NCBI RefSeq assembly: GCF_020622265.1 | Contig: NZ_JACNMQ010000001.1 | Location: forward strand, 992,001 to 1,056,000 | Length of the DNA stretch: 64,000 bases | Direction of reading: 5' to 3' | Source: Halomonas sp. M20 | GTDB taxonomy: Bacteria > Pseudomonadota > Gammaproteobacteria > Pseudomonadales > Halomonadaceae | Shown here: positions 38,036 through 58,776 of the stretch, piece after piece | Layout of the letters: every line of letters starts with the position of its first letter | How positions within the stretch are numbered: position 1 is the first letter of the stretch | The notes under the pieces: generated by a model | What the model was told of the DNA's origin: nothing | The model's database searches: none | Seen by the model: only the letters and a program-made list of their open reading frames with translations | Program-made: the position numbers and the translations under genes

Positions 38036-38632
38036 ATGACTCAGAAAAGCCTGGTCACCGAGATGCACCAGGTGCGGATGGCCATCGAGCTGATCGAGCT
38101 CGGTGCCCGTCTGCAGGTGCTGGAGACCGAAACCGACCTAAGCCGGGCGCGTCTGATCAAGCTGTATAAAGAAGTGCGCGGTATGTCCCCTCCCAAGGGT
38201 ATGCTGCCATTTTCAACGGATTGGTTCATCACTTGGCTACCCAACATACATTCGTCGCTTTTCTACAATATCTACCAGCGGCTGGTGCAGGATCACGGGT
38301 GTGAACGCATGGACGCCTTCGTGCGGGCCTACAAGCTTTATCTGGAGCAGTTGGCACTGGAAGAAGCGGAACCGGTTCTTGGTCTGACCCGGGCCTGGAC
38401 GCTAGTGCGCTTCTTCGAGAGCAACCTGCTCGAGCTATGCAAATGTACCGGCTGTTCCGGTCACTATGTCATGCATGCACATACGCCTTCACACGATTTC
38501 GTATGCGGTATCTGTCAGCCTCCCTCGAGGGCCGGCAAGACTCGCAAGCGACGTGAAGAAGAGAAGCAGGTGACACCTACCGCAACGATCGACAAGCGAA
38601 CTAGCCAGCTTCTGGTCAAGCGTCACGCTTAG
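38036..38632 (+). CDS. flhC: Flagellar master regulator subunit FlhC
   Basis: Zinc-containing partner of FlhD. The 198-residue protein has the family N-terminus (HQVRMAIELIELGARLQVLE TETDLSRARL in two parts) and the four zinc-binding cysteines in CKCTGC...CGIC near residues 137-162. Length matches E. coli FlhC (192). It follows flhD by 3 bp and is followed by a strong terminator. Presence of FlhDC indicates enteric-style control, commonly linked with peritrichous flagella. Confidence 0.97.
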   Translation: MTQKSLVTEMHQVRMAIELIELGARLQVLETETDLSRARLIKLYKEVRGMSPPKGMLPFSTDWFITWLPNIHSSLFYNIYQRLVQDHGCERMDAFVRAYKLYLEQLALEEAEPVLGLTRAWTLVRFFESNLLELCKCTGCSGHYVMHAHTPSHDFVCGICQPPSRAGKTRKRREEEKQVTPTATIDKRTSQLLVKRHA

Positions 38633-52183: not shown

Positions 52184-54261
52184 ACCTGTTTGCCACCCTG
52201 GGGCGCCAGAACTTTCTGGGCGATGCCCGTCTGAAGATTCTGGCGGGGCCCATCCTGATCATCATGATTCTGTCCATGATGATCCTGCCGCTGCCACCGT
52301 TTGCACTGGATCTGTTCTTCACCTTCAACATCGCCCTGGGGATCATGGTGCTGCTGGTGAGCATGTTCACCCAGAAGCCCCTGGATTTCGCCGCCTTCCC
52401 CGCGGTGCTGCTGTTTACCACGCTGCTCAGGCTGTCCCTCAACGTCGCCTCTACCCGGGTCGTGTTGATGAACGGCAACGAAGGCGGCGACGCGGCGGGC
52501 AAGGTCATTCAGGCCTTCGGCGAGTTCCTGATCGGGGGCAATTTTGCCGTGGGTCTGGTGGTGTTCCTGATTCTGGTCATCATTAACTTCATGGTCATCA
52601 CCAAGGGCGCCGGGCGTATTGCCGAGGTGGGCGCCCGCTTCATGCTGGACTCTATGCCGGGCAAGCAGATGGCCATCGACGCGGATTTGAACGCGGGTCT
52701 GATCGGTGAGGAAGATGCCAAGAAGCGCCGTAGCGAAATATCCCAGGAGTCCGATTTCTACGGTTCCATGGACGGTGCCAGCAAGTTCGTACGGGGCGAT
52801 GCGGTGGCGGGTCTGATCATCATGGTGGTCAACCTCATCGGCGGCCTGTTGATCGGCGTTCTGCAGCACGACATGAGTTTCGCAAGCGCCGGGCGCACCT
52901 ATACCTTGCTGACCATCGGCGACGGTCTCGTCGCTCAGATTCCGGCGCTGGTGATCTCCACCGCCGCGGGTGTCACCGTGTCTCGGGTCAACACCGATCA
53001 GGACGTGGGCCAGCAGATGATGGGGCAGCTGTTCACCAATCCCCAGGTGCTGATCCTCGCGGCCTGTGTCATGGGATTGCTTGGTCTGGTGCCGGGCATG
53101 CCCAACCTGGTATTCCTGCTGTTCAGCGTCATGCTGGGCAGCCTGGCCTGGTGGTTGATGCGTCGTAACCAAGACAAGCTCGCCGAAGAGACCATCAACG
53201 CCGAAGCGCCGCCGCCGGCCCAGGGAACGCCCGAGGCGAGCTGGGACGATGTGCAGCTGGTCGATACCCTGGGTCTGGAAGTGGGGCATCGGTTGATCCC
53301 GCTAGTGGATCATCGTCAGGATGGCGAATTGCTCGGCCGCATCAAGAGCGTGCGCAAGAAGTTCGCCCAGGAGGTCGGCTTCCTGCCGCCGGTGGTGCAC
53401 ATCCGCGACAACCTGGAGTTGGGCCCCAACACCTATGTGATCACCCTCAAAGGCGTTGAGGTCGGGCGTGCCGAGGCCTATCCCGGCAAATGGCTGGCCA
53501 TCGATCCCGGGCAGGTCTCGGGTCATCTCGAAGGCACTACCACCACCGACCCGGCCTTTGGACTCCCGGCGGTATGGATCGACGCCTCGCAACGCGAGCA
53601 TGCGCAAGTCTACGGCTACACCGTGGTGGATGCGGGCACCGTGGCGGCCACCCATCTCAATCATTTGCTGCATCACCACGCCGGTGAAATGCTGGGGCGC
53701 AATGAAGTGCAACAGCTGCTCGACAAGATGGGCGATGAGAGCAAGGCCCTGGTCGAGGACGTGGTGCCCAAGTTGATATCGCTTACCACACTGCAACGAC
53801 TGCTGCACAACCTGTTGGAAGAAGACGTCTCGATCCGCGATCTGCGCACCATCCTGGATACGTTGGCGGAGCACGCCACCGCCCAGAGCGATGCCTATGA
53901 GCTTACCGCCGTCGTGCGGGTGGCATTGGGCAGAGCCATTACCCAGCACTGCTTCCCGGGGCAGAATGAACTGCACGTGATCGGTCTCGATGCCAACCTA
54001 GAGCAGGTGCTGAGCCAGGCCATGAACGGCGGCGGTGCCCTGGAGCCCGGGCTGGCCGATACCCTGATGCGGGAGGCGGAAGCCGGTGTGGCTCGTCAAG
54101 AAGCCAGCGGCGAGCCTTTGGTGCTGGTGGTTCAGCACGGTCTGCGAGCGCTGCTTTCGCGCTTTCTGCGCCGTCGTCTAACCCACTTGACGGTGCTGTC
54201 CCAGGCCGAGATTCCCGATGATAGAACTCTACGTGTTACCACTCTGATTGGAGGTCAATGA
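52180..54261 (+). CDS. flhA: Flagellar export gate protein FlhA
   Basis: Large export gate protein that forms a nonameric cytoplasmic ring for cargo. The 693-residue protein has eight N-terminal membrane helices (to about 310), the conserved FHIPEP-type loop region (QKPLDFAAFPAVLLFTTLLR, LSLNVASTRVVL, RFMLDSMPGKQMAIDADLNA) and the C-terminal soluble domain. Length is standard (692 in E. coli). It overlaps flhB and meets flhF with overlapping ATG codons. Confidence 0.98.
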   Translation: MNLFATLGRQNFLGDARLKILAGPILIIMILSMMILPLPPFALDLFFTFNIALGIMVLLVSMFTQKPLDFAAFPAVLLFTTLLRLSLNVASTRVVLMNGNEGGDAAGKVIQAFGEFLIGGNFAVGLVVFLILVIINFMVITKGAGRIAEVGARFMLDSMPGKQMAIDADLNAGLIGEEDAKKRRSEISQESDFYGSMDGASKFVRGDAVAGLIIMVVNLIGGLLIGVLQHDMSFASAGRTYTLLTIGDGLVAQIPALVISTAAGVTVSRVNTDQDVGQQMMGQLFTNPQVLILAACVMGLLGLVPGMPNLVFLLFSVMLGSLAWWLMRRNQDKLAEETINAEAPPPAQGTPEASWDDVQLVDTLGLEVGHRLIPLVDHRQDGELLGRIKSVRKKFAQEVGFLPPVVHIRDNLELGPNTYVITLKGVEVGRAEAYPGKWLAIDPGQVSGHLEGTTTTDPAFGLPAVWIDASQREHAQVYGYTVVDAGTVAATHLNHLLHHHAGEMLGRNEVQQLLDKMGDESKALVEDVVPKLISLTTLQRLLHNLLEEDVSIRDLRTILDTLAEHATAQSDAYELTAVVRVALGRAITQHCFPGQNELHVIGLDANLEQVLSQAMNGGGALEPGLADTLMREAEAGVARQEASGEPLVLVVQHGLRALLSRFLRRRLTHLTVLSQAEIPDDRTLRVTTLIGGQ

Positions 54262-56663
54262 TGAGCGTCAAACGATTTGTCGGGGCCACTAGCCGCGATG
54301 CCATGCGCCAGCTGCGCGCCGCCCTGGGGAACGATGCGTTGATTCTCTCCAATCGCAACGTGGCGGAGGGGGTTGAAATTCTGGCCATGGCTGATGAGGC
54401 GCATGGGCAGATGGTGGGCTCACCAGCAGCGACGCAGCCGAAACCAAGCGCCATGCCGCAGGCAGTTTCCAGGAATCCGATGAGGGCGAGCGCTTCTCCA
54501 GCGCCCCAGGTTACAGAGCGCGCTCATGTACCTTCAGCGCCTTCAGCGCCCCAGGCGGATTTCGCTGCCTTCAGCGAGCGGGTGCTGGGGGAAATGCAGG
54601 ATCTGCGTACCCTCTTGACCGGCCAGGCCCAGCGTTCGGCGGATCCGTCGCGGATGGCGGCGGAAAGTACGCTGGAGCGGTTGCAGCGCCGACTTCTGGG
54701 AGCCGGATTCGGTGCGCGGCTGGTGGAAGAACTGCTCGAGACGCCACCGGTGGAGCTGGTGCACGCCTCTGATGAACTGGCGCTGGCCTGGGCCAAACGC
54801 CAGCTCACGTCGCGCTTACCGATTCTCGATGATGAAGCGGCACTGCTCGACCAGGGCGGGGTGTTTGCCCTGATCGGCCCGACCGGTATCGGCAAGACCA
54901 CCACCACCGCCAAGCTCGCCGCCCGCTACGTGATGCGCCACGGTGCGGCGGGTGTGGCCCTGGTGACCACGGACAGCTACCGTATTGGCGCCCACGAGCA
55001 GCTGCGTATCTACGCCCGGCTGCTTGGGGTGGACGTACATGCCCTGGAGGCGGATGCGCCCTTAGGAGATTTGCTGACGAGACTTGCTCACAAGCGTCTA
55101 GTCATCATCGATACCGTCGGCATGAGTCAGCGGGATCAGCGTCTGGCGGGTCAGGTCGCGATGCTTGGCGATTCGACCGGGCAGTCCCAGGGGCATCAAG
55201 TGTCACGTCCCATCCGGCGGTTGCTGCTGCTCAATGCCGCCAGTCACGGCGATACCCTCGAGGAGGTCGTCGAGACCTATCAGCGCGCATCCAAGGCCGC
55301 AGGCGCGCCCCTGTTCGGCGCAATTCTGACCAAAGTAGATGAAGCACCGCGTCTGGGCGCGGTGCTGGATATCGCCATTCGCCATGGTCTGCGGTTGCAC
55401 TATGTTTCTCACGGTCAGCAGGTGCCGGAGGATTTGAGTCTGGCGGACGGGGATACATTGCTGGATCAAGCCTTGAATGCCCCCGGCGACTCCTCCTTTG
55501 CCGCCGAAATGCCGCAAACGTCTGGCGCTGCCTCCCAGCGCAAGCAGACTCAATCCCGCAAACAGCTGACCCGAGGGCTGCTGGGCCAGGGCAGGGCGCT
55601 GGTCTCGACGTTGAATACGCTGAGAAACGAGGTCGCCGGTTTCGCGCTGCTCGAACGGGCCTGGCCACTGCTCGGCTATTCCTTGGAGCAGCAGCAGGCT
55701 CATCTTGAAGGGCTGCTCGACGGTGCAAAAAGGCGGCGCCATCTCGAGAGCGTCGAGCCCGCCCAGGCCATGCTGTGGGCCCAGGCCAAATCCGTCAGCG
55801 GTGTGGACTGGACGATGCCGGGGCTGTCCTTGAACCCCTCGGGCCAGATACAGGCGCTCCCCTGGTTGCTGCATCGCTTGCCTGCCGGGGAGGAGGGGCG
55901 TGTGGATTGGGCCCGGGAACAGCTTGGTATTCGCTGGCAGCTATTGCCGCGTTGCCCTGGTACAGCGACGCGTCAACGCATGGCAGAAAGCGGCTCGACC
56001 TGGTTGGCCACGGCCCAGGCGGGTTCCCAGGTCATCGTCGAAGGAAGACGCCAGCGTTTGAAGGAGCTGGCGAGTCTGGCGGATACCTGGACCGAGCTGA
56101 GCTGTCGCTATCGTGGACGCGATGCCCATCTCAGGCTGTCTCGTCTGGTGGTCACGCTTGCGGATGGCACCTCTTTGACGGCTTGGTTCGGTCTCTTGAG
56201 CGATCCTGAAAGCAAGCGCCAGTTGGCTCAGCGTTATTGGTTGGCGCCGCAAGAAATAGCGGGGAGAGGCGATGCTGCGGCAGATAGAGCTGCTGGAAAA
56301 GGCTCGGCGGACCACGCCTTTGCCCAGGCACTGATGGCACAGCTGGTACACGACGATTTACCGCTGCTTACCCGCCGCGCATGGCAGCGTCTCACGGATG
56401 CCGGCGAAAAGATCGACCCGGAACTGCGCCTGCTGGTGGCAACCGGACTGGCGGCAGTCGTGAGTCGGCTCGATCAGGAGCGAAGCGATTGGGCAATGGA
56501 TGTCAGAGCACAATTGATGGGGTCGCTCGGCAAACATCGGGGGCGTTCGACCCAGGTGTTGATGGATGCTCTACTGCATCTGCTGACCGCCCGCGATGTT
56601 TTTCTCATGCTGGGTGATGCGGGGCTGGGCGGCGTGGGGCTGGTCGATGAGGTGGCTGCGTGA
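54261..56663 (+). CDS. flhF: SRP-type GTPase FlhF with a large C-terminal extension
   Basis: SRP-family GTPase that usually places and numbers flagella. N-terminal basic region 1-45 (MSVKRFVGATSRDAMRQLRA), a low-complexity linker (50-100), then an NG domain with G1 GPTGIGKTTTTAKLA (206-220), TTDSYRIGAHEQLRIYA, DTVGMSQRD (284-292) and the base motif TKVDEA. Family members end soon after the NG domain (about 430-500 aa); this one is 800 aa, with about 395 residues after position 405 matching no domain I recognise. GGAGG lies 6 bp before the chosen ATG. It overlaps the FlhG-like gene. Confidence 0.93.
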   Translation: MSVKRFVGATSRDAMRQLRAALGNDALILSNRNVAEGVEILAMADEAHGQMVGSPAATQPKPSAMPQAVSRNPMRASASPAPQVTERAHVPSAPSAPQADFAAFSERVLGEMQDLRTLLTGQAQRSADPSRMAAESTLERLQRRLLGAGFGARLVEELLETPPVELVHASDELALAWAKRQLTSRLPILDDEAALLDQGGVFALIGPTGIGKTTTTAKLAARYVMRHGAAGVALVTTDSYRIGAHEQLRIYARLLGVDVHALEADAPLGDLLTRLAHKRLVIIDTVGMSQRDQRLAGQVAMLGDSTGQSQGHQVSRPIRRLLLLNAASHGDTLEEVVETYQRASKAAGAPLFGAILTKVDEAPRLGAVLDIAIRHGLRLHYVSHGQQVPEDLSLADGDTLLDQALNAPGDSSFAAEMPQTSGAASQRKQTQSRKQLTRGLLGQGRALVSTLNTLRNEVAGFALLERAWPLLGYSLEQQQAHLEGLLDGAKRRRHLESVEPAQAMLWAQAKSVSGVDWTMPGLSLNPSGQIQALPWLLHRLPAGEEGRVDWAREQLGIRWQLLPRCPGTATRQRMAESGSTWLATAQAGSQVIVEGRRQRLKELASLADTWTELSCRYRGRDAHLRLSRLVVTLADGTSLTAWFGLLSDPESKRQLAQRYWLAPQEIAGRGDAAADRAAGKGSADHAFAQALMAQLVHDDLPLLTRRAWQRLTDAGEKIDPELRLLVATGLAAVVSRLDQERSDWAMDVRAQLMGSLGKHRGRSTQVLMDALLHLLTARDVFLMLGDAGLGGVGLVDEVAA

Positions 56664-57214
56664 GCCAGGTCGACCAGGCGGCAGGGCTGCGGCGCTGGGC
56701 CGAATCTCAGGCGCCTTCTTCATCACCCGCCATTGAATCGTCATCCGCCGTAGTGTCATCGCTCGCTGCGGTCAGCCAGTTCGATGCGAACCAGGCTGAC
56801 ACGAACCACGCAATGAAAGTGCTGGTGACTCTGGGGCTTCCTGGAGGCGTTGAGGCAGATGTGACGCCGGTTACCGAAGCGTTGATACGTTGGCACGCTC
56901 AAGGGCAACGCTGGATAGAAGATCCCGACAGCTGGCGCATTCTGCCCTTATCCATGAGCAGTCCGCATTTTTCGGCGTTGATGACCCAGCAGTCTCGTTG
57001 GGCGCTCTGGGTGGGGGATGATCTGGATGGTTTTCGCCGCGCTTATGGCATGCTCAAGCGGCTGGCGCAACAAGGAGGCCCCCGGCGCTTGTTGCTGGTG
57101 CATTCTCCCTTGCCTTCCCGGGCGGGGCTGCTCAACAACCTCCAGCAGGTGGCGGCGCGGTTTCTGGATATGCAGCTGCTGGTGATTACACCGCCGCGAA
57201 TACGCAAAGACTAG
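56660..57214 (+). CDS. FlhG-like protein lacking the ATPase P-loop
   Basis: A 184-residue protein in the usual place of flhG/fleN. It starts with GTG and overlaps flhF by 4 bp. Residues 5-11 read DQAAGLR, the N-terminal motif by which FlhG activates the FlhF GTPase. FlhG then has a MinD-type Walker A, KGGVGKT; here the matching stretch (53-67) reads KVLVTLGLPGGVEAD, so the Lys and Thr are gone. Residues about 117-175 (DDLDGFRRAYGMLKRLA, AARFLDMQLLVI) resemble the C-terminal half of FlhG. The middle is much shorter than in a real MinD ATPase. The stop codon lies inside a mobile-element repeat. Homology is read by eye. Confidence 0.65.
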   Translation: MSQVDQAAGLRRWAESQAPSSSPAIESSSAVVSSLAAVSQFDANQADTNHAMKVLVTLGLPGGVEADVTPVTEALIRWHAQGQRWIEDPDSWRILPLSMSSPHFSALMTQQSRWALWVGDDLDGFRRAYGMLKRLAQQGGPRRLLLVHSPLPSRAGLLNNLQQVAARFLDMQLLVITPPRIRKD

Positions 57215-57481
57215 GGTCTGTTGACGTTTCATTCACGTTCGCGCTGGTGCCAGTTTTTATTCGGGGCAAGGCAGGAGGAGAGAAATTTGGTTATTCCAAA
57301 TGAACGACGACTAACGCCGCAGCGGATAAAAACTGACCCAGCCCTTCGGGTTGCGCATCAAAAAGCGCCATCCTGCGTTGCGAAACTTGAAAAGGGAATA
57401 ACCCTTCTCTGCGTTCCGCGCCTTGACTGGCACATTTTGATGCAGCAACGCGGTTCGCGATGAAACGTCAACAGACCCTAG
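57211..57481. mobile_element. MITE-like element with 22-bp perfect terminal inverted repeats
   Basis: A 271-bp element bounded by perfect 22-bp inverted repeats, 57211-57232 (core GGGTCTGTTGACGTTTCAT) and 57460-57481. The ends read CTAG...CTAG, so a TA or CTAG target duplication is plausible. No transposase is encoded; the interior has smaller palindromes (e.g. TTTGGTTATTCCAAA near 57290). The left repeat contains the TAG stop of the FlhG-like gene and the right repeat contains the ATG used by flhE. This suggests a non-autonomous element moved by a transposase encoded elsewhere. Confidence 0.85.
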
Positions 57482-57948
57482 CCGCGGCATTACTTCTTTC
57501 GATACGCGTGGGCTGGGCAACAGGGTTCTTATATCTGTTGTTGGTTGTGGCGACATTGGCGCCTGACGCTCAGGCAGCATCAGGCAGTTGGGTAGGCAGC
57601 GCGCCTGGCGTACGTGTGTTTACCCCGGGACGCCCGGCGCAATCCGCGCCGATTACCTCTTCTTCTCCGCTATCTTCCGATACTCGCATTGACAGCATAA
57701 GCTGGCGTTTTGAGCCGCCGCCCGGTCAGTCTTCGCTCGAGGCCTGGCTTTGCCAGAGCAAGCGCTGCTTTGCGTTGTCCATGGCCCGAGGCACTAGCCG
57801 AGCATTATCGGGCCTAGACGCCAACCAGGCACTATTCTTCGTTTTTCGTCTTCCCCACGATGCTCACGCTATCAAACCTTTTCTGGTTCAGGGGCTGCAG
57901 GTCATCGTGAACTACCGTTCAATTTCCTCCGATTTTCCTAAAGGTTGA
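57460..57948 (+). CDS. flhE: Flagellar protein FlhE
   Basis: Periplasmic protein linked to proton-leak control of the export apparatus in enterics. The 162-residue product has a long signal-peptide-like N-terminus (MKRQQTLAAALLLSIRVGWA...APDAQA). The body matches FlhE: GSWVGSAPGVRVFTPGR, APITSSSPLSSDTRIDSISW, the paired cysteines in LCQSKRCFAL, and the end LVQGLQVIVNYRS. The ATG and first codons come from the right inverted repeat of the MITE-like element. Without it the first in-frame start would be GTG at 57508, and neither start has a clear ribosome site. Confidence 0.85.
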   Translation: MKRQQTLAAALLLSIRVGWATGFLYLLLVVATLAPDAQAASGSWVGSAPGVRVFTPGRPAQSAPITSSSPLSSDTRIDSISWRFEPPPGQSSLEAWLCQSKRCFALSMARGTSRALSGLDANQALFFVFRLPHDAHAIKPFLVQGLQVIVNYRSISSDFPKG

Positions 57949-58074: not shown

Positions 58075-58776
58075 ATGTATACGGCACAAGGCAAAATCGA
58101 TCAGCGCGCAATACTCGATCAGTACTTACCTATCGTGCGACGTCAGGCGCTGTCGCTACAGGTCAAGCTTCCAGCCAGCGTCGAACTCGACGATCTCATA
58201 CAGGCAGGAATGGTGGGGCTGCTGGACTGTCTGAATCGCTACGATTCGGGCCAGGGGGCAAGTTTTACCACCTATGCCAGCCAGCGTATCCGCGGGGCGA
58301 TGATCGATGAGTTGCGCAGCCGCGACTGGGTGCCGCGAAGCGTTCGGCGCAACGCCCGGGAAGTGGATGAGACCCTTCGCCGCCTGGAGCAAGAGCTAGG
58401 TCGTCCGGCAGAAGAGCGCGAAGTCGCCGAGGCGATGTCTCTGAGCATGGAAGAGTATCGCCAGCGTCTGGCGGATACTAATAACGGGCAGCTGCTGGGT
58501 TACGACGATGTGTTTGCCGAAGGCGATGAGCCGGATGCGGGCATCGGCGGGCCCAAGTCACCCTTCGATGCGCTGGTCAGCGGCGAACAGAGGGAACGCC
58601 TGGTGGGTGCGATCGACCAGCTTCCGGAGCGGGAAAAGTTGCTGCTGGGGCTTTACTATCAGGAAGAACTCAATCTCAAGGAGATCGGCGCCGTATTGGG
58701 GGTCAGCGAATCTCGCGTCTGTCAGCTGCATAGCCAGGCCGTTGCTCGGTTACGGGTCAAGCTCGCGGATGCTTGA
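58075..58776 (+). CDS. fliA: Flagellar sigma factor FliA (sigma-28)
   Basis: Alternative sigma factor for late flagellar genes. The 233-residue protein has region 2 (VELDDLIQAGMVGLLDCLNR, YDSGQGASFTTYASQRIRGA, MIDELRSRDWVPRSVRRNAR), region 3, and region 4 helix-turn-helix (LNLKEIGAVLGVSESRVCQL HSQA). GAGG lies 8 bp before the ATG. It is 126 bp after flhE. Six sigma-28-like promoters in this window are its likely targets. The anti-sigma gene flgM is not in the window. Confidence 0.98.
   Translation: MYTAQGKIDQRAILDQYLPIVRRQALSLQVKLPASVELDDLIQAGMVGLLDCLNRYDSGQGASFTTYASQRIRGAMIDELRSRDWVPRSVRRNAREVDETLRRLEQELGRPAEEREVAEAMSLSMEEYRQRLADTNNGQLLGYDDVFAEGDEPDAGIGGPKSPFDALVSGEQRERLVGAIDQLPEREKLLLGLYYQEELNLKEIGAVLGVSESRVCQLHSQAVARLRVKLADA

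Follow-up and report, generated by a model that had tools for sequence, protein, structure and literature searches.

An FlhG-like protein without the ATPase P-loop as a putative ATP-independent activator of FlhF in FlhDC-carrying Halomonadaceae

Our comparative analysis of a genomic region of Halomonas sp. M20 (the window, by which we mean the whole 64,000-nucleotide stretch of DNA analysed) points to the product of the gene directly downstream of flhF, here termed FlhG', as a probable descendant of FlhG that has lost the ATPase and would stimulate FlhF independently of ATP in bacteria where FlhDC has replaced FleQ. Two functions meet in FlhG: it activates FlhF, and it runs through an ATP cycle on which membrane and FleQ/FlrA binding rely. 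A natural FlhG endowed with FlhF activation only would separate the two and allow a test of which one determines how many flagella are formed and where. Our confidence in this reading is good, albeit slightly lowered by the fact that the invariance of the motif described below is partly due to selection of the sequences. The features of the window are as follows.

38036-38551, + strand: flhC, subunit of the master regulator (genome match converted to window coordinates)
54258-56663, + strand: flhF, long form of 801 aa, FlhF GTPase region present (ORF, domain search)
55491-56660, + strand: C-terminal extension of FlhF (residues 412-801), with a predicted fold that resembles Tn5 transposase (model)
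56660-57214, + strand: FlhG' gene, encoding a putatively FlhG-derived, ATPase-less protein of 184 aa (ORF, alignments, dN/dS, predicted fold)
56672-56698, + strand: FlhF enhancer-helix motif DQAAGLRRW, FlhG' residues 5-13 (sequence)
56705-56812, + strand: FlhG' linker, residues 16-51, low-confidence and fast-evolving (model, dN/dS)
56813-57211, + strand: shrunken MinD/FlhG-like alpha/beta domain of FlhG' without P-loop, residues 52-184 (model, fold match, alignments)
57460-57948, + strand: flhE, with the boundaries given by the ORF tool; it starts within an inserted repeat (ORF list)
58075-58776, + strand: fliA (resemblance, by eye)

A conserved FlhG-like protein lacking the P-loop

The FlhG' open reading frame starts with GTG (N-terminus VSQVDQAAGLRRWAE) and overlaps the flhF stop by 4 nt. 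The 184-aa length of its product, the DQAAGLR motif at residues 5-11 and the location just 3' of and overlapping flhF are all as the original prediction, made from this DNA alone, had described them. The loss of Walker A that it had claimed extends to the whole set of relatives, as the GxxxxGK[ST] pattern (P-loop or deviant Walker A) is absent from FlhG' and 80 relatives (0/81). The Walker B/DTAAG stretch of FlhG is skipped in both the profile and the MAFFT alignment of FlhG', which also stops short of the part of FlhG that forms the C-terminal membrane-targeting helix. Because three defining features of the FlhG ATPase were tested and none was found, FlhG' should not be filed as such. The protein is unrecognised by Pfam and NCBIfam, and sequence searches of PDB and Pfam (with either alignment or with the N-terminal peptide) returned nothing usable. 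The LGLPGGVEAD region, regarded in the original prediction as the former Walker A, falls in a predicted strand (53-58), loop and helix (69-80) compatible with the place of Walker A; the MAFFT and profile alignments pair it elsewhere in FlhG, not with Walker A.

In the structural model of FlhG' the N-terminal third is of low confidence (including residues 8-16, modelled as a helix) and the core mostly has pLDDT > 90. A Foldseek search of 350,542 PDB chains placed FlhG/FleN at all of the ranks 1-10 (E 3.6e-4 to 4.9e-3, below 0.001 in 2 of the 10; TM 0.36-0.44, rmsd 9-12), so that the fold predicted for FlhG' alone comes nearest to FlhG/FleN, albeit at low TM-scores, and gives no sign of the unrelated fold raised originally as a counter-indication. 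Profile comparison with canonical FlhG (hhalign), which the original prediction had also suggested, gave E 2.8e-4 with a probability of 41%; a second run gave E 8e-4, a probability of 24.5% and a score of 31.0 (12 shuffles <= 17.4). The aligned C-domain is collinear with the IVPAS, VVVxDEP, AYxxxKxL and RFL parts of FlhG. That FlhG' is instead an unrelated alpha/beta protein which acquired a DQAxxLR helix appears highly improbable: the modest profile and TM scores and the lack of a significant Pfam, NCBIfam or PDB sequence match would be in keeping with such an origin, but ten FlhG/FleN chains outrank other MinD/ParA and Rossmann folds, the gene position is the same and the profile alignment is collinear.

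Comparison of the window gene with its three nearest relatives yielded dN/dS values of 0-0.02 for the helix (15 codons), 0.07-0.11 for the C-domain and 0.14-0.75 for the linker, and the three relatives compared among themselves gave 0.11-0.14 for the C-domain and 0.32-1.81 for the linker; these estimates took 3 of the 80 relatives (L160 and L161 were aligned only) and some dS values exceed 1. The three relatives, taken from a motif-filtered scan, appear to correspond to the nearest ones of an unfiltered protein search. Signs of decay, raised originally as a counter-indication, are absent: the frame is open, the C-domain is constrained and the protein is conserved across genera. The possibility of a pseudogene, or of a gene cut by the repeat insertion at 57211-57481, was rejected, as the proteins of near relatives stop at a similar position and dN/dS is low.

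The inserted repeat is a 271-bp element with perfect 22-nt inverted ends, located between the FlhG' gene and flhE; in the genome it occurs five times at full length (93-100% identity), besides several partial copies. The listed start codon of flhE falls inside it.

Distribution and genomic association with long FlhF and FlhC

The survey of Halomonadaceae for a full-length flhG revealed no canonical FlhG in 201 genomes. The best match of the FlhG profile among them (E 6.2e-25), as well as that in the M20 genome itself (E 5.9e-23), is at MinD level, and these best matches are taken for MinD, judged by level and length. At least 115 of the 201 genomes have an FlhG' relative by a protein search of sampled genomes, which missed diverged copies in the genera g4 and g16. 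FlhF (best E < 1e-30, a threshold passed by 161 genomes, or 160 by the tool's own cut-off) and FlhC were both found in all 115, consistent with the claim that the same bacterium also has FlhDC, borne out by flhC within the window.

To read the gene after flhF, 60 flhF loci were fetched, 45 with a long FlhF (722-873 aa) and 15 with a short one (422-468 aa across the 14 that could be parsed; the parsing patterns did not capture L047 or, among the other loci, L114 and L122). In 42 of the 45 long-FlhF loci the gene after flhF encodes a DQA[ASQ]GLR protein of 131-295 aa. The ORF filter used in one of the two readings demanded DQA.GLR, and the motif columns in alignments A1 and A3 are invariant partly by construction; among long-FlhF-locus ORFs chosen without motif filter, the DQAxGLR motif is present in 37/37 (the 45 loci less three without the gene and five with a wrong or no ORF). 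The DQAxGLR ORF is found after flhF in none of the 15 short-FlhF loci, where the next gene is fliA-like in the 14 parsed (by eye). All 14 FlhF-positive Halomonadaceae genomes without FlhC have short FlhF frames (424-477 aa). FlhG is missing from its usual place, with a fliA-like gene after flhF, both in the short-FlhF Halomonadaceae (L037-L051) and in another family of the order (L115, L116 and L119).

Three long-FlhF loci without FlhG' (L058, L061, L068) all belong to the genus g8 and have an flhE-like gene next (by eye). Since 3 of 45 long-FlhF loci do without it, FlhG' is dispensable in one genus. This, together with 14 of 201 genomes that have FlhC without FlhF at E < 1e-30, could represent steps in module loss. 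A corresponding explanation is that FlhG' is a relic, with no more than a residual role, of an FlhF-FlhG module being dismantled in FlhDC lineages and finally lost, as in enteric bacteria. The g8 loci, the FlhC-only genomes and the reduced FlhG' of g2, g4 and g16 (131-158 aa from the chosen start) speak in its favor; we nevertheless consider it unlikely, as dN/dS is low in the C-domain as well as in the helix, and the motif is present in every one of the unfiltered ORFs.

A scan of named genomes demanding DQA[AS]GLR[RQA]W produced 128 stretches, of which 83 were confirmed and 80 kept. Seventeen of the 80 loci are outside Halomonadaceae, the carriers being Azotobacter vinelandii, Pseudomonas, Stutzerimonas stutzeri, Pseudidiomarina, Aliidiomarina and Alloalcanivorax. 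An flhF frame is directly upstream of FlhG' in 79 of the 80, the remaining one (L193) being at a contig end. This constant neighbor, as well as the lack of the DQAxGLR ORF in short-FlhF loci, makes it quite improbable that the helix has ceased to act on FlhF and that the protein is an adaptor of the C-ring or FlhDC, even though the aligned FlhG part includes the AYxxxKxL and RFL segments and FliM binding to FlhG is reported to be nucleotide-independent (PMC11236974). A class-wide search with alignment A3 matched 2 of 369 genomes, both Halomonadaceae; because it missed the diverged copy of G015 (L055), the absence of FlhG' elsewhere is weak evidence.

The FlhG profile finds FlhG/FleN in 7 of the 12 other FlhG' carriers (E 7.5e-147 to 5.5e-84), and the same profile finds none in the other five (four Idiomarinaceae and Alloalcanivorax). 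All seven FlhG/FleN proteins lack DQAxxLR (0/7), therefore the helix and the ATPase are on separate genes in these carriers. The spread outside Halomonadaceae, the constant long-FlhF partner and the carriers with a FleN of opposite composition go beyond the original prediction.

Elsewhere in the order, the FlhG read after flhF has a P-loop in 24/24 loci and the strict DQAxxLR in 0/24; in three further loci of one family (L115, L116, L119) no FlhG follows flhF. In the class sample (L128-L156), 29/29 FlhG after flhF have the P-loop and 24/29 the strict motif too. Among 20 more class loci (two from already-counted genomes), 18 have the P-loop. Of the other two, the genome G417 (L261) has directly after flhF a gene with the motif DQAAGLR and without a P-loop, and in G533, of the same family, the gene after flhF has neither. 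Genes following flhF may thus have lost the P-loop on more than one occasion.

The C-terminal extension of FlhF

Residues 412-801 of the window FlhF (~390 aa) form a confident predicted domain (pLDDT 91). All of the 79 FlhF measured upstream of FlhG' have a C-terminal extension, with 248-406 residues counted from a position 205 residues C-terminal of the FlhF P-loop. The only PDB fold matches below E 0.001 (Foldseek) are three Tn5 transposase chains (3ECP, 4DM0, 1MUS; E 6.8e-8 to 1.5e-7, probability 1.00, 409-473 columns), with a TM of 0.41-0.42; the next hit has E 0.096. The extension has no Pfam transposase match. Alignment A4 comprised 78 of the 79 extensions (without L158) plus that of the window. 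Sequence comparison of the extension with transposases gave E 0.2-0.25 and a score of 17.0 with a two-sequence profile (1 of 12 shuffles higher, 19.2), and E 0.034 and 24.4 with a nine-sequence one (40 shuffles <= 22.0, reversed 16.2). The latter profile comprised 9 of 15 transposase frames (repeats were dropped, one was trimmed and several are partial). The D-D-E residues are not visible by eye in the weak nine-sequence alignment. Overall, the model suggests that the extension likely has a transposase-like fold; a transposase origin is possible, the sequence support being marginal with the nine-sequence profile and at noise level with the two-sequence one, and catalytic activity is unlikely. 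A transposase-derived extension would make an unusual case of domestication within flagellar assembly.

Proposed mechanism and comparison with known systems

In the systems studied so far, it is the glutamine of DQAxxLR that stimulates the FlhF GTPase; FlhG itself alternates between monomer and membrane-bound dimer in an ATP-driven cycle (PMC12826062). FlhG' most likely works like the activator half of FlhG. Its DQAAGLR helix would dock on FlhF and speed GTP hydrolysis, a disordered linker would tie this helix to the shrunken, nucleotide-free MinD-like domain, and the latter, presumably incapable of the ATP-dependent cycle of dimerisation and membrane binding, would probably be a docking domain. 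Docking on FliM/FliN is conceivable because FliM-FlhG binding is nucleotide-independent, whereas FlrA is reported to bind only the ATP-bound FlhG dimer (PMC11236974); for the latter reason the ATPase may no longer have been needed in lineages in which FlhDC took the place of FleQ/FlrA. What FlhG' retained would be the stimulation of FlhF, perhaps along with docking to FliM, whereas the FleQ/FlrA arm would be gone. Our results support the ATP-independent FlhF activator of the original prediction, of which both the action of the helix and the independence of ATP are what we infer.

A broader scheme, which we put forward tentatively and would give somewhat less than an even chance, is that of a rebuilt FlhF-FlhG switch under FlhDC. 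The MinD-type ATPase timer would have been discarded, leaving an ATP-independent GTPase activator, and FlhF would have gained, by fusion, a domesticated Tn5-like domain devoid of catalytic activity that serves new positioning or scaffolding, with the halves of FlhG on separate genes in Azotobacter and some Pseudomonas. Among the papers listed by full-text searches of open-licence PMC texts (subscription journals lie outside this collection), no title or abstract start describes an ATPase-less FlhG or such an FlhF extension. One carrier of FlhG', A. vinelandii, has peritrichous, FlhDC-dependent flagella that have been genetically studied (PMC2885672).

The FlhG-like protein of G417 shares with FlhG' the DQAAGLR motif, the lack of a P-loop and the place directly after flhF; it differs in the length of its frame (about 262 aa), as does its FlhF (~525 aa), and comes from one genome. 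FlhG/YlxH (PDB 4RZ2, 4RZ3) has in common with FlhG' the place after flhF and the DQAxxLR helix and is, with FleN, its best fold match; in contrast, FlhG' has only 184 aa, contains no P-loop, skips Walker B in the alignment and lacks the C-terminal part with the LEFFVERL region. Pseudomonas FleN (PDB 5J1J, 7EJW, 8P53), likewise among the fold matches at ranks 1-10, retains the ATPase and lacks DQAxxLR (the latter also stated in PMC12713375), a composition opposite to that of FlhG'.
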